From positions 5,923,558 to 5,987,557 of the forward strand of contig OZ022585.1 of the NCBI GenBank assembly GCA_963669155.1: a stretch of DNA of 64,000 bases, in the 5' to 3' direction. This DNA is from Arbacia lixula (taxonomy: Eukaryota; Echinodermata; Echinoidea; Arbacioida; Arbaciidae). Positions 1 to 26,000 of this stretch are shown piece after piece (the stretch's first letter is position 1; each line of letters opens with the position of its first letter). Position numbers and translations under genes: made by a program. The notes beneath the pieces are model-generated. The model ran no database searches, had not been told where the DNA came from, and worked only from the letters and a program-made list of their open reading frames with translations.

Positions 1-435
1 TTCCGTAATTTTTTTTGCTTCAGATATGCATTTGGATACATTGAAAGAACAATGTGATCAAGCAAAAGGCCTAGAAGGCACAACTGACAGTGATACAGAA
101 CAGTTTAGGAATAGCAGTATTTTGTACACAATCCTATGCAAAAACTAACTTTTAGTCAGATTTTGGTCTGACATGCGATTACATAATGTTGCATTACGGT
201 AACCTCGAAACATAGTGTCCAATTTTTTCAAAAATTTGGTACCAAAGTTTGTGATAAACTTCAAAAGAAAAAGTTGTGAAAAGGCGTGTTGCGATGTTCA
301 GGGGTTGCGTATCAGTCACGGATTTCCTTCAGGGAGGGGGGTCAACGCCCTCCTCTCCAGTCAGAATAGGGTTTATCCAAGTATTTCATTGAATACCGGC
401 CCTGATCCCCACTACCGATAAATTGATCATCTTAC

Positions 436-510
436 TCCTTGCTTAAATGGCCGTTTGTCAGCAATGCAGCTCTGTGGCTCCAGCTGCTGCTGCGGCTGCT
501 GCGGCTGGGC
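436..510 (-). CDS. PARP4: PARP4 exon 33: glutamine-rich exon, last one visible
   Basis: Acceptor TTAATCCTCAG|GCCCAG, donor CAAGGA|GTAAGA, 75 nt, phase 0. Encodes [15 protein letters not shown] then [10 protein letters not shown]. No stop follows before the donor, so at least one more exon must lie off the left edge. Confidence 0.58.
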
Positions 511-1978
511 CTGAGGATTAAATATGGATGAGGTAACCGAGATCATCTGAGAGGGAAAATAAAAAGACGGAAAGGGAAAAAGACATCAGTTTTTGTGGCC
601 TTTTGTAAAGCACGTAATCATTATTTTCAATATCAATCGTAAACATTAGCCACTTGAGGTACGTATCCTCCTCTTTCCAAAAATTATAGTTTCTCCAAAG
701 AAGTAATCCCTTCTGTGGATCTTGTGTAATCTGTTTATTACTGTTACTCTCCATGATCAATATGCTAGATTATAAACAAAGACAAAAACACAAACATTCA
801 TCACTTTGAATAAGCAACTGTACAACTTAACCCTATATAGCCCAGCCCCCCCCCCCCCCCCCCCTAAGATCTCGACCGTTGATCGCGCGATCGCGAAGAA
901 AATTGGCACGGACGTCACCGATGATGTAATCTCCACAATTCAATTGTCAATTGCACCAAAATTATTCAAATTTATTTTTAATTAATTAATTATGCTAATT
1001 AAATGCATAAAATCATAATTTGGTTGTAAATCTTTAAATATAGCCCCAAAACTGCTAGATTTCAGTCCAGACACTCTTCTTAGGATTATTATCAAATAAC
1101 GATTTAAAAAATTGCAATATCAAAGTTTTTCTTATGTATTTTTTTTTTTTTATTTCTTATGTATTTCTTTGTTTTTTCAACTTTATGTTTTCCAATGTTT
1201 TTTCGATGGAAATCATTGGCAACACTATTTCAGTCATAAATAACATGAAATCTAATGTTTTTCATCAGTAAAGCTAAAAATGATGATACATTTATTAATT
1301 TTGGCTAGATACAGAATTTGTATTGGATTTGTACATAAAATCACGTTTTTGAGCAATTTTTGGTCTGACATGCACGTACAAAATGTTACGTAACTTCGGA
1401 ACCGCATACCCCCGCGAAGCAAATTTGGTCTTAAAAGTTGCGTGAGATTTGAAGGAAAAAAGTCCTGAAACGTCGCGGCGCTATCTTTTCGCGTTACAAA
1501 TTTATTGTGAAAAATGACGAGGGGAGGGGGGGGGGGCTGTTTTTGCCCCCCCGGGCTAGATAGGGTTAAGACGCATGAATAAAAAGTAAACAAGAAATTG
1601 ATGCCTTGTGTACTGCCTAGTGGATAACGCTTCTGCCCGGCAAGCAGGAGATCGCAGGTTCAAATCCTGTATGGTCCTCTTTTTATCCGCTTATATTCTA
1701 ACAGATCGATCAGCAAAACAAAGATTACATCCAAAAGAAGAGTGTATTCTTTTATGTGCAATGGGTGTGGCTTATAGACCCCATTGCCTTGCAAATGTTA
1801 TGTGAATTGCACGCTGTAGAACATTACATACAAAGAATTACATGTAGAATTTACAGGTGGCTGAGCTATTTTGCTATATGTTCTTTTCTGAATATATATG
1901 GTATGATAGTATAGAGTAATATTGGTGCATCTGTCTCTTGATCCAAGGTACAGATATAACCCAAGTTTTGTTCTAAAT

Positions 1979-2019
<41 letters not shown>

Positions 2020-5000: not shown

Positions 5001-8000
5001 ACATGTCTGTCAACCCCGGTGGTGTCACTTTATATTTATTGCGTTCCAGATTTCACAAAAAATGGTAATTTTTAAAGTGTGTGTTCTATGTTTGCAAAAT
5101 GAAAGACAAGGGGTATTTTAAGATGACACCCTGCTCTAAATTAAAAAAGACAGGCCTTTTACATGAATCATGAGAAGGTGAAGTTTGTTTGTATTCTTGT
5201 AACAATGTACTGAAAATGTACAAAATAAGGGAATAGTCATCACTTAGTTGTCCAATAAAAATGGGGTACCTCACCCCACGAGATGCCCATTTTGTGGGAT
5301 ATCCCGTCAAACGATGCACTTTTGCAACAACATGAAGGCAGTGTACACTCACACAGAGTTTGAATGAGGGTCCCCTATTCTTGTCCCCCGCAGCCCAAAG
5401 ATCATCCACCTCAGTATCTCGACTCTCAACGGCATCAATTCCAAGCAGAACGTCATCAAGGCCAAAAGAAATTGCATCAGAAATTGGTGGCTGGAGATGT
5501 TGCTCAGATTCCTAGGAAAAACGATGCGAGAATACCAGCAGTAGAATATACTCCCCATACTCTGAGCCATGCCATGTTTACACGGTCTCATACCCAGTGC
5601 CAAGTACTGTACAGTCAAGCGGGGTACAAGCTTTAGGCCCTGTGGCCTGCTAAGTCTACAGCTATAATTGAATTTGCACATTCAGGGTCCAATGATCACT
5701 GAATCTTCAAATTGGCAATGCAAGGGAAAAGGTTGCAATCCCACCTTTGCTCTTCAAATTGACACGATTGTTGCTCTAACTTGAATGATTTGGAAATTTT
5801 GTTATTTAATGATTGAATTGACATACCGTTTTCTAATAAAAATGTCATTAAAAAAATAATAGCGTTTTAAATCTAAAAGCCAAAAAGTGATTAGTTTTCT
5901 TGAATGAGTTAAGGTGATGGGAAATGCTAGTGTTGAAATGGTGGATAAATTAAATGGTGCTTTACTTTACTTTGAAGTGTACTATACATTCCTAGGGGGT
6001 GTTTCACCAAGCTGTTCCTAAGTTAAGAACGACTTTATGCATGACGGGTAACCTCTTCTTGTGCTAAATCAGATTCTCGATGATTTTGATTCCCTTGAGC
6101 TTACATGAAAGTCAAAATCTGACCTTTGTAAATCAAAATTCTTGTTGTTAACAAGCGTCTGAATATAAATTTTATGATTTTTCAAATGATAGTGAGAAAT
6201 TGACATTTCATTTAGCACAGGAACAGGTCACCAGTGCGTAAAGTCATGCATAGCTTACGAATAGCTTGGTGAAACACCCCCATTTGTTAGACCTAAACCA
6301 TGCTCTTATCTCCCAATGGTATCGTTACTTCATATTGTTAACCATATCTGTGCCACACAAAGTGAATCACTTTAGAATTTGTGTGTACTGGTCGTGAAAT
6401 GATTCATGCGATACATAAAAGAAACAAAATATCCAACATAGCCCCAAAGGTATGATATGTTTTGCATTTTCTTGCAGAAATCCTTGTAATAAGCTTTAAA
6501 GGGATAGCTTACCCTGAAGTTAAGTTGGTTTCAATAAAAGCAAAAACATGAATGAAACATATACATGTAGGTGAAGGTTTGACGAAAATTTGTCAAAGTG
6601 TAAGAGAGTTATGATCTTTTAAAATGTTATTTAGTGATGTCATGTGCGAGGTGCTCTCCTATATGTTGTGTACTATAAGATTCCTTTAATATATTGTTCT
6701 TTTTATGTTTTTGATGGATTAATACTTTTTTGTCATAGAGTTATGTGCGTAAAAATATGTTTCTAATGAAGTATCACATGCACAGGTAAAATGATGCATG
6801 CCCTTTTGACATTGAAAAAAAAATAGGAAACAACATATGGGAGAGCATCTCGCACATGACATCACAAAATCAACGCTTGTTTCTTTCTTATCCTTCGGAG
6901 GATTTTCATCAAACCTTCTGCTTGTATTAAGATCAACTTAGTTTCCAGGTGGACTATCCCTTGAACAGTAGTTTATCTGCAGCTCACCTCTGTAGCTGTT
7001 TTCATCTCATCATGACTATCAAATAATGCCATTCCCATGTTCATGTCCAGCTCCTCCTCCTCCTTCTCCTTTCAAATAGGAAAAAAGGAACAGAGAAAAG
7101 GCAATTGTGAAGAAAAAAAATTAACATACCAAAATCCTTATGTATGTATTATATTAGAAAGTTATGATTTTTCAAAATTTTAATTTTGTGATGTCATGTG
7201 CAAAGACTCCCATATGTTGTGTGCAGTAGGATTCTATAAATTGCTCATTTCTGTTTTTAATGAAGAATTTTTTTTTCAAAGTGATATGTGTTACTAATGA
7301 TGAATGAAATGTACAGATAAAATGATGCATATCCTTTTGAGAAAAAAAATTTAAACAAATTTAGTGCACAACTTATAGAAGAGGAGCTTGCACATGATGT
7401 CACAAGATCAAAACTTTAAACAAATGTAACTTTCTTATCCTTTGACGGATTTTCATCCAAACTTCATGCAGATGTTTATTTCATGTTTCTACTTGAATTA
7501 AGATCAACTTGGTTTCAGGGTGGATTAATCCTTTAAAAGTAGTTTTTTCTGTGGCTAACCTTTGTAGCTGTCTCCATCTCCGCATAACTATCAAATGCCA
7601 TGTCCATGCAGAGGTACTCTTCCTCTCCTCTATCCTTCTCTTCCTCCTCCTTCCAAATAGGAAAAAAGGAAACACATTAATAGATAAAACAAACAGACCA
7701 CTGGCTGCCACAGACAAAACTATCTATGAATTCGCTCCTCGCTATTTTGTGTTCAGACTCCTCTGTCTCTTCTTTCTTCTTCCAAAAGGGAAAAAAACAA
7801 GCATATTTTGATGTAAAAGAGGTAACCAATAATTCCACAACCATGCACTCCATTCATAAACAAAAGCAATTAATTCGCCGGCATTCAGAAAAATGTTTCT
7901 GCATTAAAGGGCATATACTGTACTGGGAAGGCAAAAAAGCCTTCAAAATGTAATTGTTAGCAATCTTCTTATCAATGGTCTTAAATTCATGTATTGTCTA

Positions 8001-11000
8001 TTTTACAAGCTTGCTGAAAGTTATTTGCCCTCAAATGATCTACATTTTGAGTAATGAGTGATTAAATCACAAATCCTCAAAATGTTCGGGCCGAACATTT
8101 TGAAGATTTAATCATTAATAATTAATTACTCCATATGTGGATCATTTGAGGGCAAATAACTTTCAGCAAGCTTCTAAAATGGTAAATACATGAATTTAAG
8201 ACCATTGATAAGAAGATTGCTAACAATTACATTTTGAAGGCTTTTTTGCCTTCCCAGTACAGTATATGCCCTTTAAGTAGTTATAAGCCAATCTTTTGTA
8301 TACATCTATTAACAAATTTCACAGCACCCTTTAACCCTATTCTGTCTCGAGGGGGTAAGGGGGTAATTTTGATCCCCTCCTATCCAAAATCCATGACCGA
8401 TGTGCAAGCACTGTAATTCCTGGCATGCCTTTTCATGACTATTTCTTCTGAAGTGTCTTGCAACAAATCGTACAAAAAGTGTGACCTACTTTTTAAAAGG
8501 AGAAATATGAATAAATATGAACAATATGCATCTAATTCGCATCAATCTGAATTTACTCAACACTCAATACGGCCTATTTGTAGTGCGTTCTAGCTCACAG
8601 TGACAGAGCATATATGCGCGCAGCCCAGGATAGAACAATAAACAATAAAAAAAATGCCTTTTTTAATCTTTGTGGTGTGACAATCATTCCCCAAATTTAT
8701 GTTTACAGTTATCACAATGTGCATACAACTGGACAGATATGTTCTTGTCTGCATGTAATGTGAAAACAGGGTCATACGGATAACATGCACCAGCTGAAAG
8801 GCTCATGAAGGGTTCTACTGTATACGCCATATATTTCGCAGGAATTTTATTTTCGATACTGTCGCAAGCCTGGTGCTATTCCCAAGGTGAGCAACATGAA
8901 AAAGATATTCACTTTGATCCTGACATGAATACGACGTGCACGCACACATGTACTACAGGGAAACCCCGTTATAACGAGCACGGGTATAGCGAGAACCCTG
9001 TTATTACGAGGACATTTCTTGGGTCCCGATTTTTCTTCCATAGACCTCTAGCGAGGCAAATTCCCAGCCCAAGAATACAGAAAAAGAAAGGAAATTGACT
9101 TCATTATTATGAGCACTCCCTTCAGCCACGCCGTCCAGCGAGGGAAACGCAACAACAGCACAGGCAATTTTCTTCGCGCCGTTAAACGCTGATCACACAC
9201 ACCGTGCAAGAATCCACACACACTTGCATTACGCGTGTGCGGTACTGCCATAGCCATATCTCTATACAGCTATAGGTACTGCACGCCCCCGCGCCCAACC
9301 ATCAACACAGTCACGCACGCACATGGCAAGAGCCTCTGAACATATTTTACCCCGCGAGTGTACAACTGCGGCAATGATCATTCATTGCTTATACGAGTTC
9401 ATACCAGCAGGCGCGGCCGGGTAACTGGGCCTCCCCACTGCTTCATTTCTCTGTAAACGGAGGTGTTGGAAGTGTCATTTATTTACATTTTCAACTGTGC
9501 TGTTAGATATTTTAGTGAATTTTTAGCTAATGAATTCAGTATAGTATACTTGCAAAGCCATTTAAATATTACAGTCCTACCTGTAAATATGTTATTGTTT
9601 GTGTAGTCCTATAGATGCATTTTTTTCTGTTATTTTGCTCATGTACTGGTATAGCGAGCCATCGGCTATAGCGAGGAAAAAGTCTGGGTCCCAACTTCCT
9701 CATTATAACAGGGTTTCCCTGTACTATTACACAGTACTCCATGATTGTGAATTTAACCACTTGCGAAATTGTCACAAAGTCCTCATTCAAGAAAAGTTAG
9801 ACTTGATAAATATATGGCATATACAATACTATTCTCACCTTTGCCTTCATCACTTCACACTCTCCAGGGTCACGGCACACTTTCACACGTCCAATGCTTG
9901 ACACCTCCTGCCACTCTGCAAGTGTCATTCTTTTCTTGAGGGTACCAGACAAGCTCCCTGAGCAGTTCAGGTCTCCTAAACCTGTTTTTGGTGTTGGCAT
10001 CAGGGGTAGCATGTTCATTGCTTTAATTCCCACAGGATCCTCTGCCGCTGTTGCTAGTGGTACGTTCTTGCTGTCTCCAGAAAGCTGCACCCCCTCATAA
10101 GTCTCTGCTCCTTGACAGATTCCTTCCGTTGGGCCCGTCATTGTACTTGCTCTCTTCACAGAACCTGCGATTCCTTTTTTGATGGTTTCATCAACCAGTG
10201 CATATGAACTCTGCTCGCACAATGAGTCCCTGGGAGATAAATATTTACCTGTCGAATCGACTTGTAATTTCCTGGAGAGAAATTGCAAACGTCCTTCCTC
10301 AAAGCTTAACTCACGACTCTTCACTTCCTGACTTTGAGCAAATCCACCCACAGCACTACTTGGCAGATTGCTTCTACTGTTAGACTGAAATTGAAAGCGA
10401 TTTTCTTCATAGCTGAGATCCCTACCATTGAGATTTCGTGCTTTGTCATCTGTAACTTGGCCCATGCCAGTGGTAGGAGCACCTGCCAATCTTCCGTGAA
10501 ATGTTGGACATGTCCGCAAATCAAAAGAAGGAGATGTTCCGTGTCTATCCTGAATGTAACTGGCTTGTTCACTTTCTCCTCCATGCCTCAGTGCCTCACG
10601 TGTAATAGCTTCAGCTTCAATGACAACGGCAACGGGTCCAACTGGGAACGTGGCCTCTGGATTAGAACAACCCCAGATTGGAAATGCAGCTTTTTTATCT
10701 TGATCTTGCACATCATAATCATTGGTTTGATGTTCCAGCACAACTGCAGTCTCCACTTGTGCACTCTGCCTGGAGGAGTCTTCAATTTGCAATGGTTCTC
10801 TTGTTGGGGCCACCAGCAGCTGATTGGATGTTACAGACTGTGCAGTTTCCGGCACTGAAGTAATTGGACCACCAGATACATTGCTTGCTACAAGTAGTTC
10901 TCCAGATGAGCACACAGCAGGCACACCAAATGCATGAAGTTTTTCTTGTGGTACGCCAAACAACGCACCTGGAGATGGAGTAGTATTTAAATTGTTCTTG

Positions 11001-14000
11001 GGCTGTTGCATCAATCCAAAGTTGAATCCACCACCGCTACTGTCGACTGGTCTGAACAGTCCTTGAGAGTGTGATTGGGGATTCTGCTGAACAGATCCAA
11101 ACGAACCCCATGCCTCGCAAGGAGCCGTGGTGTAGTCTTCAGACTGATGACATGGGCCTTCAGAGTGCAAAGTTGGCATGAATCCAGGTGGAGAGTCATG
11201 AGGTATTCTAACAAGACCCCCACTCAGACCACCTCCAGGAAAACTTTGGTGCAGGTCAATGGAGGCGACAGTCTGGTCCCTTCCACCAAATAGCCTGGAT
11301 AGGCTGTCAGACTGTGACACTGAACCACATGTATTTGAAGACCCAAACAACCCCCCAGCTCCTTTAAGGGAAGATCCGAACAAAGTGGTGTGTGGCGCAG
11401 TGAACCCAAAGCCACTGTAAGTTTTCTCATCCGGTGATCTAAAAAGCCCCCCAGATTCTGAAACAGTGCCAAATGTGGTCTTCGACTGCTGTTCAAATCC
11501 GGACCCAAATCCAAATGTCCCTTCTGTTTCGTTCCTTAATCCAAAATCATGTTTAAGCTCATTTGAAGAACTGAAGAGATGTTCAGATGGTAGACTTGGT
11601 TTCTTGCATGACCCAAAGAAAGACCTAGATTGTGGACTTGATCCAAAGAGAGACCCAGATTGTGGACTTGATCCAAATGAGACCTGTGGCTGTTGACTCT
11701 CTATTGCTTTGTTGCTTTGTCCAAAGAAAGACCCAGATTGTGGACTTGATCCAAATGAGACCTGTGGCTGTTGACTCTCCATTGCTTTGTTGCTTGTTCC
11801 AAAGAGAGACCCAGATTGTGGACTTGATCCAAATGAGACCTGTGGCTGTTGACTCTCCATTGCTTTGTTGCTTGTTCCAAAGAGAGACCCAGATTGTGGA
11901 CTTGATCCAAATAAGACCTGTGGCTGTTGACTCTCTATTGGTTTGTTGCTTTGTCCAAAGAAAGACCCAGATTGTGGACTTGATCCAAATGAGACCTGTG
12001 GCTGTTGACTCTCTACTGGTTTGTTGCTTGTTCCAAAGAGAGACCCAGATTGTGGACATGATCCAAATGAGACCTGTGGCTGTTGACTCTCTATTGGTTT
12101 GTTGCTTTGTCCAAAGAGATACCCAGATTGTGGACTTGATCCAAATGAGACCTGTGGCTTTTGACTCTCTATTGGTTTGTTGCTTTGTCCAAAGAAAGAC
12201 CCAGATTGTGGACTTGATCCAAATGAGACCTGTGGCTTTTGACTCTCTATTGCTTTGTTGCTTTGTCCAAAGAGAGACCCAGGTTGTGGACTTGATCCAA
12301 ATGAGACCTGTGGCTGTTGACTCTCTATTGGTTTGTTGCTTTGTCCAAAGAGAGACCCAGATTGTGGACTTGATGCAAATGAGACCTGTGGCTGTTGACT
12401 CTCTATTGGTTTGTTGCTTTGTCCAAAGAGAGACCCAGATTGTGGACATGATCCAAATGAGACCTGTGGCTGTTGACTCTCTATTGGTTTGTTGCTTTGT
12501 CCAAAGAGAGACCCAGATTGTGGACTTGATGCAAATGAGACCTGTGGCTGTTGACTCTCTATTGGTTTGTTGCTTGTTCCAAAGAGAGACCCAGATTGTG
12601 GACTTGATCCAAATGAGACCTGTGGCTGTTGACTCTCTATTGGTTTGTTGCTTGTTCCAAAGAGAGACCCAGATTGTGGACTTGATCCAAAGAAAGACCC
12701 AGATTGTGGACTTGATCCAAATGAGACCTGTGGCTTTTGACTCTCTATTGGTTTGTTGCTTGTTCCAAAGAGAGACCCAGATTGTGGACTTGATCCAAAT
12801 GAGACCTGTGGCTGTTGACTCTCTATTGGTTTGTTGCTTGTTCCAAAGAGAGACCCAGATTGTGGACTTGATCCAAATGAGACCTGTGGCTGTTGACTCT
12901 CTATTGGTTTGTTGCTTTGTCCAAAGAAAGACCCAGATTGTGGACTTGACTTTAATGAGACCCGAGGCTGTTGACTCTCTATTGGTTTGTTGCTTTGTCC
13001 AAAGAAAGACCCAGATTGTGGACTTGATCCAAATGAGACCTGTGGCTGTTGATTCTCTATTGCTTTGTTGCTTGTTCCAAAGAGAGACCCAGATTGTGGA
13101 CTTGACTTTAATGAGACCCGAGGCTGTTGACTCTCTACTGGTTTGTTGCTTTGTCCAAAGAAATACTCAGATTGTGGACTTGATCCAAAGAGAGACCCAG
13201 ATTGTGGTCTTGACCCAAATGGGATTGGAGGCTGTTGATTCTCCACTAGTTTGTTGCTTTGTCCAAAGAGAGACCCAGATTGTGGACTTGATCCACATGA
13301 GACCTGTGGCTGTCGACTCCCTTCTGGTTTGTTGCTTTGTCCAAAGAGAGACTCAGATTGTGGACTTGATCCAAAGAGAGACCCAGATTGTGGTCTTGAC
13401 CCAAATGGGATTGGAGGCTGTTGATTCTCCACTAGTTTGTTGCTTTGTCCAAAGAGAGACCCAGATTGTGGACTTGATCCACATGAGACCTGTGGCTGTC
13501 GACTCCCTTCTGGTTTGTTGCTTTGTCCAAAGAGAGACTCAGATTGTGGACTTGATCCAAAGAGAGAACCAGATTGTGGTCTTGACCCAAATGGGATTGG
13601 AGGCTGTTGATTCTCCACTAGTTTGTTGCTTTGTCCAAAGAGAGACCCAGATTGTGGACTTGATCCACATGAGACCTGTGGCTGTCGACTCCCTTCTGGT
13701 TTGTTGCTTTGTCCAAAGAGAGACTCAGATTGTGGACTTGATCCAAAGAGAGACCCAGATTGTGGTCTTGACCCAAATGGGATTGGAGGCTGTTGATTCT
13801 CCACTAGTTTGTTGCTTTGTCCAAAGAGAGACTCAGATTGTGGACTTGATCCAAATGAGACCTGAGGCTGGTGGCTCTCTCTTGGTTTGTTGCCTGATGG
13901 AAACATGTACCCAGATTGCTTACATGAGAGATGTACATTTAGCTCTTGAATTGATTTGGAATTATCATCTCTTGCTTCCAGATCATGATATCTACCGCCA

Positions 14001-17000
14001 CCTTGACCATCTCCCCCACCACCACCAACACCTTCACCAACACCACCACTACTACTACATGTGCCATCATCATTTCCACCACCACCACCACCACTTTCAT
14101 CATCACCAATCACACTTTCGCCGACCCCATCACTCACGACAGCAGAGCAGTCAGTTACTCTGAAAGGATCATTCGCACTTTGATTAGTGGGAGTACTCAC
14201 TTGTTCTTTCCGCCTTTCAAACGCGTCAGGGTCTGCGCAGATCAGGGAAGAGCATCTAGCTCCTGTCAGGCTTTCCACTGCTTTTTGTTCAGTGACGCTA
14301 AATGCAGTCTTCTTCTTCTTCTTCTTCTTCATTTTCATTGGTTCTGGAGAGTAGGTGGCTAACGCTGAAGATGTTGGGTTATAGGCTGGTGATGATGGGG
14401 AATAGGCTGGTGATGTTGGGGAATAGGCTGGTGATGTTGGGGTATAGGCTGGTGATGATGGGGAATAGGTTGGTGATGTTGGGGAATAGGCTGGTGATGT
14501 TGGGGAATAGGCTGGTGATGAGAATTGTGCTTCTTGGATTGCTCTGGCGTCTTCCAACAAAAGTGCCCCCATTGAGGGTGGCCGTGGTGGTAGTTGTGCA
14601 CTAAATGCTCTGGAGCCTCCAGCAAAAAGTGCCCCCATTGAGGGTGGCGGTGGTGGTGGTGGTGCACCAAATGCTCTGGCGTCTCCAGACAAAAGTGCCC
14701 CCATTGAGGGTGGCGGTGGTGGTGGTGGTGCACCAAATGCTCTGGCGTCTCCAGACAAAAGTGCCCCCATTGAGGATGGTTGTGGAGGTGGTGCACCAAA
14801 TGCTCCGTAGCCTTTCAACAAAACTTGCCCCATTGAGGGTGGCGGTGGTGGAGGTGGTGCACCAAATGCTCTGGCGTCTCCAGACAAAAGTGCCCCCATT
14901 GAGGGTGGCGGTGGTGGTAGTGGTGCACTAAATGCTCTGCCGTCTCCAGACGAAAGTGGCCCCATTGAGGGTGGCGGTGGTGGTAGTGATGCACCAAATG
15001 CTCGCAAGCATTGGCCCTTGGACACAGGTAGTCCTGACACTGCAGCAGTCAACGGAGAGAAGAGAGGAGGAAGGGGTGCAGCTGATCCAGGGTGTTGGGG
15101 GGACGGTGGTACACGTCGACACTTTCGCATACGTGTACGTCTATATATCGGCACTGCTGCTTTAGGCAAAGGTCCAAACTGTAGGAAAAGGAGAGAGCAA
15201 AATGAGATGTAGCAATAACTTGGAGATTTCCTCATAGGACCAGAATAGGAGATGGGTCCCACCCCCCTTCCTCCCTCACCTCCCATTCTTCAATTTTCCA
15301 TATCGCAAATAACCATGCACGATGGTTCAACCCGGACGTTAATCCTGGTATCACCTGAGCAGTGATTCCTCCCTGTCAGACCCTTTTAACTGTCCTTTTT
15401 TAGTCAAAATATTTTAAAGTTTCCCTTCCATCAAATTTTGACATATGTGATATGCCACAGCGAGAACAGACATAATTTTAACCTAATTTTTGAGATTTTG
15501 ATACAGTTCGAATCTGTACTTTCTAAGCTTTAACATGATGCAAAGTTTGTCACAAAAAGATTATGTAACTCAGAGTTATCAAAGTTTTTCCAAGATCAAT
15601 TTTGAATGATCTGAAAATATAATCCCAAGAAGATCGCCAGAGAAAATGTACATCAGCTTCTAAAGTTAAAAATGCTCACCAGGTGGACAATTATGTGACC
15701 TGTTGCATGAATAGAATGCCTTAGTAACCTTGTTCCAAATATCTTGAAAAATTGCATATTAGTAAACATGTTTGATTTACAACTTCTCTGCAAAAATCTG
15801 TGAATATAATCCATGATGTGAACAGATTTAAATATTACATTGAAATTTAAGTGGAATTCGTAAGGATGACATCAAAAGAAGTACATGTACCTGACCCACA
15901 GAACGTCCATTAGTGACCGCATTCGCATGAACAAAATGACGCTCTATCCATTGTTCGACCAGGGAAGTGTAAGAACTCAGTCTGCACGAGGAATAATTCA
16001 TTCCTACACCAGTTGCTTTTATTGATAGCGCAATAGAATATTTGATGCATTTGGTTCTTTCATCCAGTGACAACCACCGCCAAATATGCAAGACAAATTT
16101 GGGAAGCAGTTTGAGGAATATACATTTTGTATGCACAGAAGATTTCAGAAACACTTCATGTACTGAGGTGCATGTGCAGTAGTAGTACATCTTATCATAT
16201 GATTCTGTGAATATCAGATTGTTATTGTTGTTTTGTTTTTGTGAAAAATGGAGATTACTGTAGAAAAACATTGGTCAATCATATTTCCTTACAAATATCT
16301 ATTAAAGCATTTATTGAGTATTTCACCTTCCATGGAAACGAACTCAACTTCGTAATTGGAGGTGTCCGAAAAAGTTACGGACCAAATTCATTTTACAAGT
16401 TTATCAAAATTCCCCTTTGCTTATCCCTAAACTAATTCACAGTGTGTGTATAAAGACCAGCTTTGAACTTCCAGCAAAGGTTGAACGGTTGATATATTCC
16501 TCAAAACAGATTTCTTTTTGTTATTCAGAGGGAGGAATTGCATCATTAGAAATACAGCATATTGTTTAAAACACCTGAATGTCTTGCATGTTTTTGAGGC
16601 AGTTGGTCATGATAGATCAAACAAAGTCCATCCACGATTGGTCGATAGATTCGCGAGTGCCGCTTAGCGCAAAGGGGTTACTAGGAGGCAGAGCTTAATC
16701 ATCAATCGCTAGTGCAGGTGCGGAGATGACAAAATCGAATTTTGCAAACCTGAAAAAACAGGCTTCAGAACTCTCAAAAATTTCAAATATTTTTCATGAA
16801 AATTTGCCAACATGTAGAAGAGATATCAGGTAATAATTTTTGTTTCCCCAATTGTTATGTTTTTTCACATCAAGTGCGATTTCTGAGAATTTAGTAATGC
16901 TGAGTTATAGCTGGTTTAACCAAAGCGTATCACATTTATTGTGCGCACTCAGCGAATATTGGACAAGTTTTTGTGGGAAAGTGTTAATGGTAGCGTGATT

Positions 17001-20000
17001 GTTTGCGTGTGCTATGAAAAGTGTGCACTGCTATATGGGTATAGTACCAGATGATAGATTTGGAAGTGCCCAGATCATGCATTTCTACCCACAATGACTG
17101 AAAAGTATTACAGCACCCCGTGAGGTTCACAGGCTCATAAAAAAAGGAACAACATACCCTCTCCCCCTTTCTCTTCAGAACATCTCAAGGAATTTGTGTC
17201 TGATATGTGGATCAGTGATAAAAAGAGTTAGAAGCATATAAGAGGTCTACTTAAAGTAGTAAGTGAATCATACTTTAACTAACAAATATGACCCGGGATT
17301 TGGGAGACATACATGTACATGTACATGTAATTTTGATGCATATGTACAACAGAAATTAAGTGTCACTCACCTTTGTTTTCATCCTTTTTACTACCTCGAG
17401 CATTGACTCTGACACTGCAAAGAACAAAATGGTAGTAATGGTTACCAAAACTACTTGATGGACTGTAAACCACTGCAACAAAAATATTTAAGTTCACATG
17501 GATCAGTATTTTATCTTTAAATATAATCCATGTAAAGTACGGTAAACATACATGCAAACAAAATGGCTTGGGAGTACCCTTTGGCATGGTACGCTATGAG
17601 TACAGTATGGTACACATGCAAACAAGTTGGCTTGGGGGTACCCGTTGGCATGGTACGCTATGGGTACTGTATGGTACACATGCAAACAAGTGGGTTTGGG
17701 GGTACCCGTTGGCATGGTACGCTATGAGTACAGTATGGTGGACATACAAAAAAGTTGGCTTGGGGGTACCCTTTGACATGGTACGCTATGAGTACAGTAT
17801 GGTACACATACAAACAAGTTGGCTTGGGGATACCCTTTGGCATGGCATGCTATGAGTACAGTATGGTGCACATACAAACAAGTTGGCTTGGGGGTACCCT
17901 TTGACATGGTACGCTATGAGTACAGTATGGTACACATGCAAACAAGTTGGCTTGGGGGTACCCTTTGGCATGGTACGCTATGAGTAAAGTATGGTACACA
18001 TACAAGCAAGTTGGCTTGGGGGTACCCTTTGACATGGTAACCTGTGGGCACAAGTGGGAAGATGATCTTAGACTTCACTGTACATAGTGAAGGTCAGGGT
18101 TCCTAGCATTTCAAGAAAACAAACGTTCCTGATTAAGTTTTAAAATTCCAATTATTTTTTGTATTACTATTATTCATGATTATTTTGACTCACATGTTTC
18201 ACATGTTGTCTATGTTGTTGCAGTGAACCATCTGGAGCATAAATTGCATCAAAATACAACCTGAATGACTACTTTCGATCTAAATTCCTTAACTTTTCCC
18301 CTATTTGAGGCATTTTTATTACATTTCCTGACTCTTCCCTGACTGGAAAAAGGTAAAATAATTTTCCGTGATTTCCCTGATGGGCAAGGAATCCTGAAGG
18401 TACATTACATGAAATCTACTTACTCATTTGAGAGCGACCAAGTTTCCCACTTAGAGCCTGGGCATCCAACTGTTTAAAAAGAGTTTGCGCTTTGTCTAAA
18501 TCTCCTTTCACATCAGCCTCAAAGTCCAGTAGTGCTGCTAAAGCCTGCAGAAATCATAAAAATAGCAAATGTCAGGACATTTATATTGAATATTTGATTT
18601 GTATTCTAGAGTGTGCTCATCAATTCTCAGATACATGATTCTGCCTCTTACACATTTCAAAAAAATTATCAACTCCAGGCGTTAGCCAGTGTTGCCAAAA
18701 ATTCTCAGCCCAAGTAGCATTAAGTAGCCGTAAAAAGTCGCCCAATTTAGCAAAAAGTAGCCCAAACTGAAATATCGCAATTTTAAGGCTATACAGCATG
18801 ATGATACTAGGTAAAAATATATTAATGGCAATGGAGAAATGAACAAGTCAGAAAAAGCCCAAAAGTAGCGAAGTAGCGGTAAGGCTTTGCAAGTCGCGGC
18901 GCAGAAGACATAAGTAGCCCAATCGGGCGCCTAAATTGCAGCTATGGCAACACTGGCATTAGCCTGAATCATGTTTGTAAAAGCTAATTATAAGCTTGAA
19001 AAGATTTGATAAACGCATTTTGATAAGCCTCGCCATTTTCAAAATATGTAGGAGCTAGAATCACGTATATGAGAGTTGATATGTCTGGCATCACAGAATG
19101 ATTTAAAATGTATTTCAATACATGTAGATGCACATATGGAAACACTGATTCTAATTATAGAAAGTTCACAGACACACCCTTAGACAGCGTATCATGCCTG
19201 AACTAATTTAATCACTGTGGACGACACGTAAGGAAGACAGGATGTACAATAGATTTAAATTGAAAATTCATGTGGTGAATGATTATTTCGATGAAATCTG
19301 TGTCTCTGATCAAAGTCTGTGAGGGTTCCTGTAAAAATTTAATTAAAGATTGATTGTATTATGAAAAATAGATTTGTTTGGTCTCGAGATAAATACATGT
19401 CATCCCAAATGCATACCTGGTTTTTGGTGGCTTCCTACACCCTGCAATCTCCTCATGGGGCCCTTCTCTCCCCCTCCCACCCCCACCCATTCCCCAACAC
19501 ATACCAGTACAGTCATGAAGATCTCTGTTGCATCTCCCTCCCTCCCCCATCCCCTTCCCCAATGCATGCATACCTTGATGTAGATCTATATTGCATCTGG
19601 CTGGAGTTTGGTGGCTTCCTGCACCCTGTACTCTCCCCATAGGGAGCCCTCCCCTCCCCCCATTCCTCTCTCCTGCATACCTGGACGTAGATCTTTGTTG
19701 CATCTGGCAGGTGTTTGGTGGTTACCTCTACTCCTGCACTTGATGGCTTCCTGCACTCTCCCCATAGGGGCCTCCCTCTCCCCCTTTCCCCTCCCCCTCC
19801 CTCTCCCCAACCTTTCCCCCTCTCCCTCCCTCTCCCCAACCTTTCCCCCCCTCCCTCCCTTCCCCCAACCCCTTCCCAATGCGTACCTTGACATAGATCT
19901 CTGTTGCATCTGGCAGGTGTTTGGTGGCACCCTGCACTCTCCCCATAGGGACCCCCTGTCCCCCTCCCTCCCCCCCCCAACCCCATCCCCCTCCCCCTCC

Positions 20001-23000
20001 CTCACCTCATCCCCTTCCCAATGCATATCTTGATGTAGATCTCTGTTGCGTCTGTCAGGTGTTTGGTGGCACCCTGCACTCTCCCCATAGGGGCCCCCCT
20101 CTCCCCCTCCCTCCCCCAACCCCGTCCCCCTCCCCTCCCTCTCCTGACCCCCTTCCCAATGCATACCTTGATGTAGATCTCTGTTGCATCTGGCAGGTGT
20201 TTGGTGGCTTCCTCTACTGCTTGCTGATAGTACTCTTCTGCCTTCAAGATAGAGAAGGTGCTCTCTAGCTGGGCCTGGTCTAGGAGACCCTGCACTCTCT
20301 TCTCAGGGTCCACCTGATTGCACCAAGACAAAGCAGAGGATAAACTCTATAAGCTTTCCATCGCCAAGGATGTTGGTGAATCACTGCATGGCTGTGAATT
20401 TAACACGCTACAGCACTGCCACACAATCCATCTACAATCTACTCCACTAAGTGCCATATCCTTTGACATCGGCAATAATGGAGTGACATAGCTCTTTGGA
20501 CTGGGGGTGTTTCACCAAGCTGTTCATAAGCTACGCATGACAGGAGACCTGCTCTTCGGTGCCAAATCAGATTTTCAATGAGTTGAGTTCCCATCAGCTA
20601 AAGTTTCATATGATCTTTGTAAATCAACATTCTTACAAGTGTCGGAATACAAAGTTTATATTTGTCAAATTTGATTACGATTGTAGGAAATGAACTCCCA
20701 CTGTGTTGAAACAGGAGCAAATTGGGATATCTGATTTAGCACAAGAGCCGGTCACCAGTTCTGTGTAGAGTCGTGCGTAGCTTATGAACAGCTTGGTGAA
20801 ACACCCCCCTGAACTCTTTACATCAGCTCCAGTCAGGCTGTTTATCCAAGTAATCCTCTTACAAGTAATCCTCCTACTTCGCCTACTTCTTTTCCCATTT
20901 AGCTTCCCTGTCGAAGCCAACTTGACTATGCCACCATTATTATGAACATGCCCCAGAAATCTCTGGAAAACTTCTTTATTAATCAATCTATGCAAACATA
21001 TTTGCATATTATTCTCGCCCTGCTCCTTCATCTAGATAGCATAGTAATGCACAGCAGTGCATGCATGTTTTCTCTCGATCTAGTCCACTGGTCTAAGTCA
21101 CATTGGCATACTAGTGCAGTAAGTAGCGGTGACAGGCTGTTCACAAGCAAGGCACACATATAGAAGCAGACAAGCAGGGTCTCAATTGCGAAAAAGAACA
21201 ACTAACTCTGGGAGAGAAATCATGGGATGGAGAGATTATAAGCACGGTACAATTCTGGGCCCTGTTGCATAAAACTTACCATTAATGGTAACTCTGCTAT
21301 CAATGGTAACTACCATGGTAACATCGCTTGTCAGCCAATGAAATTTAAGGTTTCCATAGAAATTGCCATTGGTAGCGAAGTTACCATGGTATGTTTTATG
21401 TAACAGGACCCTGGTGTGGGTATATGTGTATTCATTCATTCATTCTTTGAAACCGTTTTTTATTGATAAAAAATAAATAAATATAGACATACATCAATCA
21501 AAATGTCTGGAGACAATAAACACATTGATTTACAATGATTAAAAAAAATATATCAAAGATATATGTACAAATATATTGACAACGAGGGCGCACACACTTA
21601 CTTCTTCTTCAGCCTGTCCCCCTAGCCGAACCGTCCTCTGCCAGTCCATGTATGGCAGGCAGTCTACGCTCTCTCCTTCTGCAAGCTTCTTCATGTCCAC
21701 AGCCCCACGCTGGCCGAGATCCTCACCCTGAGGGTTTTCAGAGTTTCCAAATAATAAATGTCAGGGTCAGGGGCTCTATTACTGTTCAATCATCTTTAAA
21801 GACAGGGTGTCCCATGGGAATAAGTGAAGAAACACAGCAGGAATCAGCAGTTTACCTTACCGATAACGTGTGTGAAATTTTCAAGTCATTGATTCACCTC
21901 ACAGACCTCTTCAGGAAAAGTGAAAAACTATCAATGATAACGTTTGAAGCCTAACGGCCTTAGTCTACATTCACAATCATATTGCCAATCAGTGCATGGA
22001 TGCGCCGCACACCACAGGGATGCTCCCATTGAACGCAAGCACTGTGGAACGGACCCTAGCGAACAGAAGTCTCTGGTCTCTAGGCTATACATGTAGGTTT
22101 CACATAAACCAACCCCTAATCTCCTTAAAATCTAGTGATCACTTTGATTTCACTTTAAGTCAGTTTCCACTTCTATCATTGGGCAGGAACAGACGAGGCA
22201 CCTACTGTATGAAGCAAGAAAGTTCTAAGACCGAAATATCAATATATTTTTCTTCTCTAAGCTCTTCATTAATTTCTTTATACACGTACATGTGAGACAA
22301 GTCCAAATTTATTTTAAGAATATAGTGTTGCCAATTTGAAAGCCAAATAGTGATCACTTTTGCTGTAAGAAGGCCTTGATTTGGAATCAGTCAGTCTTTG
22401 CTCTCACCTTCTCTCTCTCCTCCACCGCTACAAAGCTCGTAAGCGTGGTGACAATGGAATATTGCTTGCTGAGATCGATGACGTATGACTTCTGCTCATC
22501 CTTCTTGGCCTCGTGGCGCGTCTCGTCTGGATCCAACATGCCGTCCTCCCAGTCACGGATCACCGCACGTGCAGTCAGGCGGTGCACCATCTGACCAATC
22601 AGAACACACAGCACATTCAACACTGACTGTGTCACTTGATGAGCACAATCAACATTGCAATTGCTACTGATCCTTACGGGTGCCCTATCACCATATTAAA
22701 TCTGGATAGATGTTATTTTGTTTGATTTGATTTATCTATTATCTGCATGATTTCCAATACATCAAATGACAACATAATAGCAAATACATGTGTCCATAAG
22801 TACATATTGCATATCTTCTTGGATACTTATGAAACAACAAATAATGAATTACAAATGAAGGGCTACTCATAATAATTCTAAGCTTGACCCGTGCAACATG
22901 AAACGTCATAACACTCAACCTTACCTCCTATTCTTACAACTTCATAATATGCCTTTTGTCACGTGTTATTGTTCAATCATGATGGGAATTTATAGTCTGG

Positions 23001-26000
23001 GATCAAGACTCACCTGTCCTCTTGTGATACACAGGTCTGATGTGGATACCATCGTTGAGACTTCTTCTCCATCTATGGTAGCTTTCAAGCATGCCTACAC
23101 AGAAATGACACCAACAATATCTGTTTCACAATTCTCTCTTTGGAAAGATTTTTTTTTTCCAAAGCATGAAAGGCAGTGGAGTCCGACTGTGATATATTGC
23201 AATTTAGTGCAGTCAATCACTGTACAAACGCACATAGAACTGACTGGATTTGACTACAACTGATCGCAATCATGAACTCTACTGTAAGGTAGCAGTAACT
23301 CTACTGTAAGGTAGCAGTCCAATACTTTGTTCAGTTTTTGTTTTATTTCTTTATCTCCAACCAGTATTTTCCCCCACTTCTGATTTAATCATTTTGATTG
23401 AAACTGTGCATAGTCACAGGTAATAGGAGAGGGAAGCAGAGAGCTTCGAGCGGCATTCTCTCAGAGACCTCAAGCTGCATTTAACTATAGAAGGTATTTG
23501 AGGGTGTAGACTGTTCAAGATATGAACTATAATACTTAATAATAATGATAATAATACTAATACTACATGTACTAATAACAATAATAATGATAATACTTAA
23601 TAATGATAATAATAATAATAGTAATAACAACAATGATAATAATTATACTAACAACAATGACATTGTCTAAGGCTATCTACCCAGGGGAGCCTCATCGGTG
23701 AGGACCCTGCATTATTACCCCAGTTACTGGATCAAAGGATCCCACCAGGCTCATATATCACTCCTGGCTACAAGCAAGTATGTGGATTCAACTGTTTTGC
23801 TGAAAAATACAAGTGGCAGCTGCTGTGTTCGACCTCTTATCGGCCTGATTGAGATTCAGGGGAACGGTCCACTATGCCTCACTATACTGTTGGTGCCAAA
23901 CAAGAAGAAGCTAACTGGGTGTGTGCACTCAAATTTGTTTAAAGCTAGAGTTAGAATCATTAATCACAAATCACCATGCCATTACAAAACACGATACTGC
24001 GGGAGATTGTTCAAGTGATTTTTCATCAACGCTGATCCATGCGCATTTCAAACCCAGTCACTGTACATTGCACTTACTGCACAGTTTGACCTAGGAAGTA
24101 TAGGTCAACTTAGCAAATTGAATGCATGCAAAGAATGTAAATGTTTTTTCCACAAAATGGCAGCAGGCTACGATAATGCTGTCATAGAATCATGATCGAG
24201 ATCTCAGATGCTCTCAATCAGTTTTAAACGACTGTGGTTCTGCAAACTCACATTTAAAAACCTACGATTTCAGAGTTTCCTGTGTGCATTTTGAACCACA
24301 TTCATTTTTATGCAACCGTGGTTTGAAATAAACGTCTTTGAAAGAACGTTCCTCAAAAGCAATTTTTTTTGAACGCTGCCTTAGAATTACATCTACCTCT
24401 GTGCAGTACTGGACGAATCCGTAGACGACGAGCCGAGAGCCGCTGAAGAGAGAGGTGAGCTGGCGAGGGGCCTGGATGGCGGCAGGGGGGTTGTCATCGT
24501 GCTGTCTCCACTCCACTGCCAGGGATGAGACAGACAGCTGCCGCGCCTTGCGCAGCTGGCTCTGCACCTGTAGTACAGTACACATCAGAACCGTTACCAG
24601 AATACAGGGAGGTACATTCATGTGTGCGACTTGTGTAAGTATGCGCAGTATGTTTAGTTATATGTTTATTTCACTTTCAGGCTGTTGGTAAACCTTTTGT
24701 GCCCTATACACTAATCAGCTCAAATCTCAATTACAACACCCAGAGAAATCTTTAAAAAAGAGTTCGTAGGTCGTAAAAAAAGGTCGTAGCAAAATTTTGG
24801 CCAAGCGAGTGACATCATTCAAGAGTTACCAGATGGTTCAATATGCAGGTATACCACATTCTGGTTTAACACGAGACAGAATGGGAAAGTCCTGCATAGT
24901 GCAGATAAAGCATGCGTCATCAACACATGATGTGAATGACTTCATTTCCTTATACAATATGAAAATATAATTGTAGGGCTTAGAATTGTAGGGCAATTCG
25001 TAAAATACTGGTTTATATGAAATCCTTTCACAAAAGTATATGAATGGCAATTTAACAACCAAAATCATCATGTTTACAATGGATGGTTGGTGTTCAATTC
25101 AAACATAGATTATGATACAATTTAAAGAGTATGGCAAAAGAAAACATATTGCATAATTGTTGTTTTGTAAGTGAATATAATGTCAATATAAAACCATGCC
25201 ACTTAATGTAACTTCTTATCAAACCATTTTCTTTAAAAAACTCCTTTTCCCAATTCCTGACAATAAAAAAATCAAATATGTGTATACACCAATCCATGAA
25301 GCTTGTAAATATTGTACTTGAATGGGATTATGACAGATGGTTGATTAAATTTACAAAAAAAAATAGGTAGACTACTTTTTAATCTTTTTTTTAGTTAGTA
25401 TTTAATTCATACTGTTGGAAATAGGTAACATGACGGAGAGGCTTTGGGTTCTTTTTCTTTTTGGGTGGGAGCCAATCCTGGCAGATAAAGTGTTGTGTTA
25501 ATGCTTCAGAAAAAAATTGCTTTTGTAGTAAATGGGCTAAAATTTCTTTGGAGGCTGGTGTTGGGATATGAGCACTAAGGACTGTACAACCATTGCCTTC
25601 CATACAGTACATCATACCTTCTTTTCCCATCTGGACTTGGCACTGGTGTCAAAGAACTCAAACGCACCGCAACCAACTCGAGCCATCCCTTTCAGAAGGT
25701 GCTTGTTTGCGCTGGAGCTGTCCAAAATAAGAGCAGAAAAAGGCATTCAAGACATGTATACATGCATGGAAAAATCATGGACTAAACTTGGATAGGACTT
25801 CAAAGAAAAAAAAAAGTAAAAATGAATAAAGTGACTCATAGAATCAATGTTCACCAAGATTCCCTCACATTTTGTTCTTAACCAGTTGCTCACTATTAGA
25901 TTTTTTGGCTTTTGAATTCTGGTCCAGTTAGGATGACAAAATTTGCCATTGAACTGCAGTAACCAAAGGGGCGTGGCTTAATTGCTCCCTATAATGAATT

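Follow-up and report, generated by a model that had tools for sequence, protein, structure and literature searches.

What role a long array of nucleoporin-like phenylalanine-glycine (FG) repeats could play in a vault enzyme, the ADP-ribosyltransferase PARP4, is the question raised by a locus of the sea urchin Arbacia lixula. Vaults were first described in 1986 and, to our knowledge, their purpose is still unknown. The window analysed here is the whole stretch of 64,000 nucleotides on contig OZ022585.1, in which the original prediction had placed, after the PARP4 core, a single giant exon of about 1780 residues spliced in phase to its neighbours on both sides. Nothing on topic was found in the open-licence PMC literature for PARP4 with FG or phenylalanine-glycine repeats.

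The giant exon within the PARP4 gene

The gene model consists of the following parts:

21602..50149, minus strand, PARP4 core with BRCT, PARP regulatory, PARP catalytic, VIT, vWA and post-vWA parts (exon model, phases, Pfam, tblastn)
20167..20313, minus strand, first half of a putative, diverged 14-3-3-like helical segment, ending in ...TEIYIK (phases 0/0; 65% identical to L. variegatus)
18424..18544, minus strand, second half of the putative 14-3-3-like segment (phases 0/1; 41% identical to Diadema, E 0.031)
17371..17414, minus strand, small exon joining the giant exon in phase 0 (acceptor and donor, phases 2/0)
9839..15178, minus strand, giant open exon of 1780 codons with 71 FG (phases 0/0; Pfam, splice sites)
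7560..7649, minus strand, next exon, acidic (phases 0/0)
6988..7068, minus strand, next exon, acidic, possibly a diverged P-stalk-like peptide (phases 0/0)

The core exons run from 50149-50018 to 21727-21602, with exon 23094-23011 added by tblastn using Lytechinus and Diadema PARP4 as queries; a phase break remains at 39681, where the exon start is inexact. On the spliced model Pfam returns the domain order of PARP4, namely BRCT (1.6e-9), PARP regulatory (PARP_reg, 3.6e-7), PARP catalytic (7.2e-28), VIT (2.6e-35) and vWA (VWA_3, 6.1e-20), and a 1724-aa PARP4 chain in the PDB matches at E 3.8e-94. The giant exon has the predicted coordinates and codon number; it measures 5340 nt, is stop-free and lies between the acceptor ttttcctacag/TTTGGA at 15178 and the donor GCAAAG/gtgaga after 9839. 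The joins foreseen on both sides hold as well, the phases being compatible from 20313-20167 through to 7649-7560, and the PARP4 models of Diadema, Lytechinus and S. purpuratus, with core identities of 70-72%, show the same upstream exons followed by poly-proline and Pol II CTD-like heptads (exon chain compared by tblastn in Diadema and Lytechinus and by eye in S. purpuratus). The claim that the giant exon is part of PARP4, joined in frame to its core, is thus supported by phase-matched splice sites and by homologous protein models from three other echinoid genera.

A C-terminal MVP-binding domain (MINT or MVPID) gave no convincing match in window positions 1-9838 with the C-terminal parts of L. 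variegatus, S. purpuratus and Diadema as tblastn queries (best E 0.35), and the gene probably extends past the window edge. Exons 20313-20167 and 18544-18424 match a profile of 14-3-3-bearing PARP4 tails (hhalign 97.8%, 1e-12), a support weaker than the E-value suggests since the regions were hand-trimmed from proteins already homologous upstream; a direct Pfam search of the two exons yielded no 14-3-3 or TPR match above cut-off. The P-stalk likeness of the acidic exons is not significant, exon 6988-7068 aligning with the L. variegatus peptide EESDDDMGYDLFDEEE at E 0.46. The resemblance of this window to 14-3-3 and P-stalk is weak.

The FG array and its neighbouring modules

The FG array is one module of several in the giant exon:

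14540..15003, minus strand, poly-proline repeats in 66-bp units (TRF period 66, 7.1 copies; six RAF[GS]A units)
14370..14520, minus strand, seven Pol II CTD-like heptads of the YSPTSPA type, residues 224-272 (TRF period 21, 7.2 copies)
14309..14338, minus strand, poly-lysine stretch of 10 residues (sequence)
14201, minus strand, internal donor CAA/GTGAGT, phase 0 (donor score 8 of 9)
11609..13918, minus strand, FG array of 26-aa units with extra 10-aa modules, 53 FG (TRF; Pfam Nucleoporin_FG, 10 stretches)
10925..11545, minus strand, tail after the array with 12 scattered FG (sequence)

The nucleoporin-like character claimed for the repeats is borne out by Pfam (Nucleoporin_FG, E = 2e-37 on the giant exon) and by the 71 FG of the tail, all within this exon, against 12.1 expected from composition; none of 1000 shuffles reaches 71, with the proviso that shuffling ignores tandem copying, and the PARP4 core has 3 FG versus 2.9 expected. 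Fifty-three FG fall in the array proper (about 770 aa), 12 after it and 6 in the first 200 residues of the exon, whose motifs comprise 24 SLFG, 7 SFFG, 15 VSFG and 1 GLFG. TRF periods over the array include 78 and 186. About 30 units of 26 residues, each with two FG, had been described: the 26-aa spacing is indeed dominant (20 of 26 spacings), but the unit starts (SNK/SCK) number 27, the final one closing the array, and an extra module lengthens five spacings to 36 aa and one to 35. Likewise, the second motif of the unit is VSFG in 15 cases, IPFG in 4 and VLFG in 1, whereas VSCG (3), VSFA (2) and VSLK (2) depart from the rule of two FG per unit.

When every difference between FG units is counted there are 62 non-synonymous and 2 synonymous changes, in copies that are not independent; unique codon changes, 27 non-synonymous and 4 synonymous, are compatible with neutrality (p = 0.28). 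Positive selection between units was dropped on this ground, and neither selection nor constraint is claimed in the array. The 78-bp repeat accounts for the antisense and out-of-frame ORFs that overlap the array (844 and 513 aa), which give no evidence of a gene. Tandem arrays are present in nearby introns too.

The FG domains of Nup98 are described in PMC9918544 as charge-depleted segments of 500-800 residues with about 50 FG motifs, one every 12-15 residues, in which GLFG is prevalent. With 53 FG in 770 aa, one per 14.5, the array agrees with the Nup98 type, taken as about 50 FG at roughly one per 12 residues, and it is similarly rich in S, Q, N, P and G, with SLFG motifs. In contrast to Nup98, it contains 10% charged residues (34 K, 11 R, 32 E and 0 D in 770 aa), has a single GLFG against 24 SLFG and is located within an ADP-ribosyltransferase; no pore anchor domain was found in the giant exon, for which Pfam returns Nucleoporin_FG and Rpb1 repeats only. 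The CTD-like heptads match Pfam RNA_pol_Rpb1_R (9e-6, 4 stretches) and their best PDB matches are Rpb1 CTDs (top 6.7e-51, a score inflated by the repeats). As in the Rpb1 CTD, they are tandem repeats in register; unlike it, they are few, have mostly Ala at position 7 and are attached to PARP4 instead of the large subunit of Pol II.

The heptads, the six poly-proline repeats, the poly-lysine run and the internal donor at 14201 had no mention in the original prediction. A donor score of 8 is also found at 10969 and 10249, both in phase 1, and at the used donor 9839. The L. variegatus isoform models X7 and X5 differ by an FG-containing segment whose start matches position 14201, and this, together with the donor score, makes the site a likely alternative exon end that omits the FG part.

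PARP4 tails in other animals

A search of other echinoderm PARP4 for FG arrays, proposed as a check, found them in two of three other echinoid genera, Diadema and Lytechinus, with other repeat units; the modelled tail of S. purpuratus has only 4 FG, a number reached by 38 of 1000 shuffles. Among 53 hand-picked tails FG is enriched (at most 1 of 1000 shuffles) in 27, most cores being near expectation, and among the 50 rankable for heterodipeptides FG is the most frequent member of the top five (35 of 50), followed by GF with 9. Urchins, starfish, lancelets, an annelid, a nemertean, molluscs, fish and shorebirds all include FG-enriched tails, built on differing repeat units, and this speaks for selection acting on FG as such, away from the pore; since the units differ between genera, FG keeps coming back in new sequence. 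Enrichment is lacking in the remaining 26 tails and in 22 of 31 further vertebrates, including all 8 mammals, whose tails are devoid of CTD, P-stalk and actin motifs as well.

At the position of the giant exon, fragments of 14-3-3, actin, ubiquitin, HSP70 and the ribosomal P-stalk are found in other animals. In particular, the tail of the sponge Dysidea contains ubiquitin (1.4e-27) and an actin piece identical to an actin chain at 53 of 65 positions, that of Owenia 14-3-3 (3.4e-30), that of Ostrea HSP70 (2.6e-29) and that of Amphiura the P-stalk sequence SDDDMGFGLFD; actin-like sequence is found in the tails of sponges, cnidarians, bivalves and a hemichordate. Motifs of the CTD, the P-stalk and the actin D-loop occur respectively in 18, 14 and 15 of 44 invertebrate tails and in none of the cores, shuffles giving at most 0.03 tails expected. 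A C-terminal vault-domain match is present in 32 of the 44, and in the 22 of these with a mapped module (CTD, P-stalk, actin or 14-3-3) the module always precedes that domain; the tail modules are therefore not fused neighbours. Nine of the 10 sponge and cnidarian tails with an actin motif show no FG enrichment, so that the modules need not have one common purpose. Since the giant exon holds several modules and PARP4 tails elsewhere hold other hub-like segments, an interpretation confined to the nuclear pore is too restrictive.

Daugherty et al. 2014 (PMC4038475) characterised the largest exon of mammalian PARP4 (exon 30 in human) as disordered, variable and positively selected. The giant exon matches it by position, and the two share the gene, the largest size, the location after vWA, the disorder and the variability of length and sequence; as for differences, an FG array, CTD heptads and hub pieces go unmentioned in the part of PMC4038475 considered here, and the eight mammalian tails have no FG enrichment. 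The 14-3-3, actin and ubiquitin parts of PARP4 tails were partly reported in 2014 (PMC4245714), which rules out the notion that PARP4 had never been joined with hub pieces in the literature, S. purpuratus included. The passages concerned describe VIT-vWA PARPs with 14-3-3 in amoebae, Capsaspora, Branchiostoma floridae and S. purpuratus, actin or actin-binding and ubiquitin-related domains on PARP4-like proteins, the occurrence of these domains as far back as amoebae and the unicellular relatives of animals Capsaspora and a choanoflagellate, and a duplication of PARP4 in sea urchin; the appended domains are interpreted there as links to host pathways, not as bait. FG repeats, CTD heptads, P-stalk, HSP70 and SNARE pieces do not appear in the vault-PARP section of that paper, and the terms 'nucleoporin', 'FG repeat' and 'HSP70' are absent from its main text. 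For integrated decoys and hubs with the vault there was no match in the open-licence PMC literature, the matches on mimicry being off topic by their listing; the 'decoy' of PMC13100048 appears there as a proteomics term.

A proposed bait segment in the vault and the alternatives

The anatomy of the exon, its gene membership by homology and the recurrence and position of the modules are directly established. The giant exon may represent, in sea urchins, the large variable exon of PARP4, its product forming a disordered segment between vWA and the vault-binding domain at the C-terminus (MINT or MVPID). Such a segment would show multivalent hub surfaces, here nuclear-pore FG, Pol II CTD heptads, poly-proline and diverged 14-3-3, to which actin, ubiquitin, HSP70 and P-stalk surfaces would be added elsewhere in animals. 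As bait at the vault wall it would trap hub-recognising proteins, foremost those of pathogens in an arms race, which would meet PARP4 mono-ADP-ribosylation and the TEP1 NADase inside the cage, and the FG array could be a small cohesive phase absorbing FG-binding particles. That the variable exon is such a fast-evolving, hub-mimicking bait segment is our tentative preference, judged from sequence comparison at somewhat under an even chance.

In plants, NLR integrated decoys are pieces of conserved host targets fused to an immune receptor. PARP4 tails are comparable in that look-alike segments of host targets are fused to a presumed immune protein; they differ in having no NLR and no known pathogen ligand, and in being disordered tandem repeats on an animal vault enzyme, with a bait role that we infer. 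The vault lumen is closed, so a lumenal bait would be reachable only by vault opening or half-vault exchange, which counts against it. Also counted against it are the neutral-compatible FG codon changes, the tails lacking FG enrichment, those of mammals among them, the mere 4 FG of S. purpuratus, the weak 14-3-3 and P-stalk likeness in the window and the domains of amoebae and unicellular relatives read in PMC4245714 as host-pathway links. Counted in its favour are the shared echinoid tails, the recurrent FG, the hub pieces, the placement of modules before the vault domain, the mammalian exon of PMC4038475, the reconstituted human vault with about 20 PARP4, located inside with MINT on the wall, and the TEP1 NADase (PMC13174449), and the entry of a viral capsid into SLFG phases in vitro (PMC10881386).

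A wider version, in which the vault serves animal innate immunity as a bait cage and the PARP4 exon is a library of hub look-alikes renewed since before animals, seems rather unlikely. The hubs imitated would be those that are exploited most in the host (pore FG, Pol II CTD, actin, ubiquitin, 14-3-3, HSP70 and ribosomal P-stalk), and the urchin tail, forming chiefly an FG phase inside the lumen of the vault, could absorb FG-binding capsids or receptors. About 20 copies with 71 FG each in 35,000-50,000 nm3 would give an estimated 47-67 mM FG, within a few-fold of pore-like phases (100-300 mM).

Condensation, or contact with pores or transport receptors, is plausible by analogy. As an alternative, the array would serve transport instead of baiting, allowing vaults to attach to nuclear pores or to cross them through FG-phase mixing or transport receptors; vaults were reportedly seen at the nuclear pore (Chugani, 1993). 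The number, length and density of FG close to those of Nup98 domains (PMC9918544) and the entry of sea urchin MVP into the nucleus during embryogenesis (PMC550661) also suit such docking, which is nevertheless unlikely: PARP4 lies inside reconstituted human vaults (PMC13174449), where the tail is not obviously exposed, S. purpuratus, the species with nuclear MVP, has those 4 FG only, the array is 10% charged, and the CTD, actin, ubiquitin and 14-3-3 pieces are left unexplained. Of the same low probability is a role free of pathogen conflict, in which the tail would bring the hub-binding proteins of its own cell to the vault, either as cargo or as substrates, or would connect PARP4 with pathways of the host. 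Hub binding surfaces are retained in the pieces (actin D-loop, P-stalk C-terminus, CTD heptads, FG), and the actin-like tails of sponges, cnidarians, bivalves and a hemichordate, like the 14-3-3, actin and ubiquitin-related domains of amoebae, Capsaspora and a choanoflagellate (PMC4245714), fit a steady host partner, whereas quick tail turnover and mammalian positive selection (PMC4038475) suit conflict better than a stable one.

Less probable again is that low-complexity repeats expanded neutrally in a segment free of sequence constraint. Such growth would agree with the unit-to-unit changes, the intronic arrays and the lack of FG enrichment in about half of the tails, but FG exceeds all other heterodipeptides across differing repeat units, and the 14-3-3, actin and ubiquitin pieces are well preserved where decay would be expected. 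Finally, the exon joins are known here from genomic sequence and protein models alone, so a giant exon taken from another gene and attached to PARP4 by modelling has to be weighed; it is very improbable in view of the phase-matched splice sites, the models of three other echinoid genera that link the same upstream parts to such tails, and the modules of other phyla, mapped between core and vault domain in 22 of 22 cases.

Under the preferred bait reading, the tail modules would lend substance to the large, positively selected exon of mammalian PARP4, so far described as disordered and fast-evolving (PMC4038475). If PARP4 shows hub look-alikes at the vault wall, the catch of the vault could be tested directly, by asking for each module what binds to it.

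The giant exon and its place in PARP4

The giant exon (15178-9839, minus strand), which lies downstream of the PARP4 core, is one exon, open throughout its 1780 codons; its splice sites fit the consensus, both ends are in phase 0, and the original prediction of a single exon phase-joined to its neighbours holds. Its modules are, in order:

15003-14540, minus strand: poly-proline repeats with six RAF[GS]A units (TRF), first module
Giant exon, minus strand: seven Pol II CTD-type heptads (Pfam RNA_pol_Rpb1_R, 9e-6), second module
Giant exon, minus strand: poly-lysine run, third module
Giant exon, minus strand: glycine-rich stretch before the FG array, fourth module
13918-11609, minus strand: FG array of ~770 residues with 53 FG, fifth module
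Giant exon after the FG array, minus strand: tail with 12 scattered FG, last module

The exon matches Pfam Nucleoporin_FG at 2e-37 and RNA_pol_Rpb1_R at 9e-6, with no other family up to E = 10. It contains 71 FG dipeptides, where the modelled tail's composition predicts 12.1, and 0 of 1000 shuffles reach 71; this test is blind to tandem copying, which inflates any dipeptide, and the case for FG therefore rests on the comparison between species.

The spliced model of the upstream exons (1336 residues, with one phase break at 39681 and small exons possibly missing), to which exon 23094-23011 was added by tblastn, matches the Pfam families VIT, PARP, VWA, BRCT and PARP_reg, and the best PDB match of its catalytic-to-VIT part is a PARP4 chain (1724 aa, 3.8e-94). 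Over residues 440-1300 it is 72% identical to Diadema antillarum and 70% to Lytechinus and Strongylocentrotus, among the best 120 of 935 and of 429 matches in the database search. In the Diadema, Lytechinus and S. purpuratus proteins the same post-vWA exons are followed by poly-proline and then by CTD heptads, which read SPSYSPTSPSYSPTSPSYEP in Diadema, SAYSPTSP in L. variegatus and SPSYSPTSPSYSPTSP in S. purpuratus. On sequence evidence the giant exon belongs to PARP4; the predicted link is borne out by the upstream domains and by these comparable tails of other echinoids. The proposed search of other echinoderm PARP4 proteins shows FG arrays after the heptads of Diadema, whose tail has 85 FG, and of Lytechinus, with 23-33. 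The units differ, being roughly SEASNQNVFGSKPTTFG in the former, SQSQGSLFGG-like in the latter and another in the window. The S. purpuratus model has just 4 FG in its tail.

Exons 20313-20167 and 18544-18424 (minus strand) are the counterpart of the 14-3-3 segment found in other PARP4 tails (hhalign 97.8%, 1e-12), in agreement with the 14-3-3 reported for S. purpuratus in PMC4245714; they are strongly diverged and give no Pfam 14-3-3 match. The acidic exons downstream of the giant exon may encode a worn ribosomal P-stalk peptide, with a match that is not significant.

A strong phase-0 donor, CAA/GTGAGT (the slash marks the junction), occurs within the giant exon at 14201 (minus strand), where three further sites score equally, namely the used donor and two out of phase. 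In the database models of L. variegatus, isoform X7 reads PASQLQK/KHEASEE and isoform X5 reads PASQLQK/VSNNEK...(FG)...LTK/KHEASEE; the matching place, located by eye, is QPQK/VSSES in Diadema, QPQK/VSNKE in L. pictus and WKQ/VSKPN in S. purpuratus. Since VS is the translation of GTGAGY, these sites are likely to represent an ancient alternative donor by which the FG part of PARP4 is left out, the DNA coming from the window alone and the isoforms from database models.

Repeats and fragments were also observed elsewhere in the window. In the intron at 20160-19400 the 3' end of exon 20313-20167 recurs as several GC-rich, partly decayed tandem copies. At 45000-44714 tblastn shows two decayed copies of the adjoining PARP4 exon 44582-44421, and tandem satellite-like repeats (ACCATACTGTACTCATAGCGTACCATGCCAAAGGGTACCCCCAAGCCAACTTG) occupy 18000-17540, in the intron upstream of exon 17414-17371. 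Upstream of PARP4, an ORF of 872 aa (52243-54861, plus strand) resembles by eye a retrotransposon pol fragment, with a reverse transcriptase end, RNase H and integrase.

FG and hub look-alikes in other PARP4 tails

The survey comprised 44 invertebrates (window included) and nine fish, with one protein per species hand-picked from the matches listed and the tail defined as all sequence after the last [ST]F[VI]A[VIL][ED]; some of the species are closely related, so its counts cannot be taken as independent. FG exceeds shuffles (<=1/1000) in 27 of the 53 tails, including the starfish Asterias rubens and Patiria, the crinoid Anneissia, two lancelets, Owenia, Lineus, a limpet, two oysters, two slugs, two anthozoans and four fish. 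The other 26 remain below this threshold, including all seven sponges, Hydractinia, Rhopilema, Nematostella, Acropora, Apostichopus, Amphiura, Acanthaster, Antedon, Glandiceps, S. purpuratus, a mussel and a scallop. FG is among the top five heterodipeptides in 35 of 50 rankable tails, the next best being GF with 9; in the cores it is mostly at or near expectation. Precomputed Pfam annotation places Nucleoporin_FG in the PARP4 of Elysia crispata and plover.

Among 31 further vertebrates, nine reach <=1/500 shuffles, including the shorebirds plover (11 FG), Calidris (11) and Rissa (14) and a catfish (17); eight of eight mammals fall short of it, as do chicken, ostrich and killdeer. FG arrays are present in some shorebirds and absent from the chicken, ostrich and killdeer models. 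Judged from these models, FG has been gained or lost within birds, which are a good system for selection tests on PARP4 FG.

Tails also carry pieces resembling other cellular hubs. A Pfam scan of eight PARP4 proteins identified 14-3-3 in Owenia (model positions 127-222, 3.4e-30) and, more weakly and under the cut-off, in Glandiceps; actin in Ephydatia (2.4e-12), Dysidea, Dreissena, Ostrea and Glandiceps (3.7e-7), always confined to model positions 2-66 of 410; ubiquitin in Dysidea (1.4e-27), Dreissena and Babylonia; the HSP70 substrate-binding part in Ostrea (2.6e-29) and Dreissena (2.5e-27); EF-hands in Babylonia, PDZ in an amphioxus hybrid, a synaptobrevin piece in Dysidea (4.9e-13) and, under its cut-off, a 60S acidic ribosomal protein in Ephydatia. 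None of these kinds was found in three further echinoderms scanned. The Dysidea piece is identical to a solved actin chain at 53 of 65 positions, and SDDDMGFGLFD of Amphiura matches the end of the ribosomal P-stalk exactly (E 0.036, owing to its shortness). Most pieces are incomplete copies, amounting to half of 14-3-3, a sixth of actin or the final residues of the P-stalk.

Motif counts in the tails of 44 invertebrates and 40 vertebrates are, respectively, 18 and 1 for YSPTSP, 14 and 2 for the P-stalk, 15 and 0 for the actin D-loop, 5 and 0 for 14-3-3 LSEESYxDST, and 3 and 0 for a ubiquitin pattern; cores have none, and shuffles predict at most 0.03 tails. Of 22 vertebrates tried, 11 went into a C-terminal profile that is assumed by position to represent the vault-binding domain and that matches 32 of the 44 invertebrates; a module was mapped in 22 of these and precedes the C-terminal domain in 22 of 22, so the modules are internal parts of PARP4 rather than fused neighbours. 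No match was obtained for the remaining 12, among them the window, where the gene is cut, and the other echinoids, whose C-termini are alike by eye only.

The actin D-loop is kept over vast evolutionary time in the tails of sponges, cnidarians, a hemichordate, a crinoid and bivalves. Longer PARP4-like proteins (~3,000 aa) of Ostrea, Mytilus and Mercenaria all have SR repeats, two of the three also CTD heptads.

Possible roles of the tail

The favoured reading of the tail, rated a little short of even, is a bait segment in which multivalent copies of hub surfaces, renewed through repeat growth, would catch hub-binding proteins inside the vault cage; truncated pieces would be suited to being bound, not to performing the work of the hub. 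The bolder version, in which the vault is an immune bait cage, is considered unlikely. The largest PARP4 exon is reported to be disordered, to vary among vertebrates and to be under positive selection in primates, with direct recognition of pathogen factors proposed by the authors (PMC4038475); ~20 PARP4 are attached to the wall of a human reconstituted vault by the C-terminal MINT domain, and the NADase TEP1 is related to an antiphage system (PMC13174449). With an inner volume of 35,000 nm3 (PMC13347060) or 5x10^4 nm3 (PMC11855390), 20 x 71 FG correspond to a calculated 47-67 mM, and the 2-16 copies quoted in PMC550661 to ~5-54 mM; FG phases hold repeats at 100-300 mM, and SLFG phases let in transport receptors (PMC9918544) and can be entered by a viral capsid (PMC10881386).

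Docking at the nuclear pore is suggested by the entry of sea urchin major vault protein into nuclei (PMC550661), but leaves the other tail modules unexplained. Recruitment of host partners, a rival to the bait, would explain why the actin and 14-3-3 parts are so old. Neutral growth of the repeats has in its favour that the changes from unit to unit in the FG array fit neutrality; the dominance of FG among dipeptides and the preserved hub pieces do not favour it.

Appended domains are already known: PMC4245714 (2014) describes VIT-vWA PARP4-like proteins that carry 14-3-3 in amoebae, Capsaspora, Branchiostoma floridae and S. purpuratus; those of Capsaspora, a choanoflagellate and Acanthamoeba have actin or actin-binding domains, and Acanthamoeba also has ubiquitin-related ones. 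These domains are interpreted there as ties to signalling, cytoskeleton and ubiquitination. Its main text nowhere uses the terms nucleoporin, FG repeat or HSP70. Among the open-licence papers covered by the searches, several of them judged from their listing, no paper was found that describes FG repeats, CTD heptads or pieces of the P-stalk or HSP70 in PARP4, or that proposes the bait. The exon in the window is a new form of an already known variable PARP4 tail; if the bait reading is true, the system would be of a new kind.
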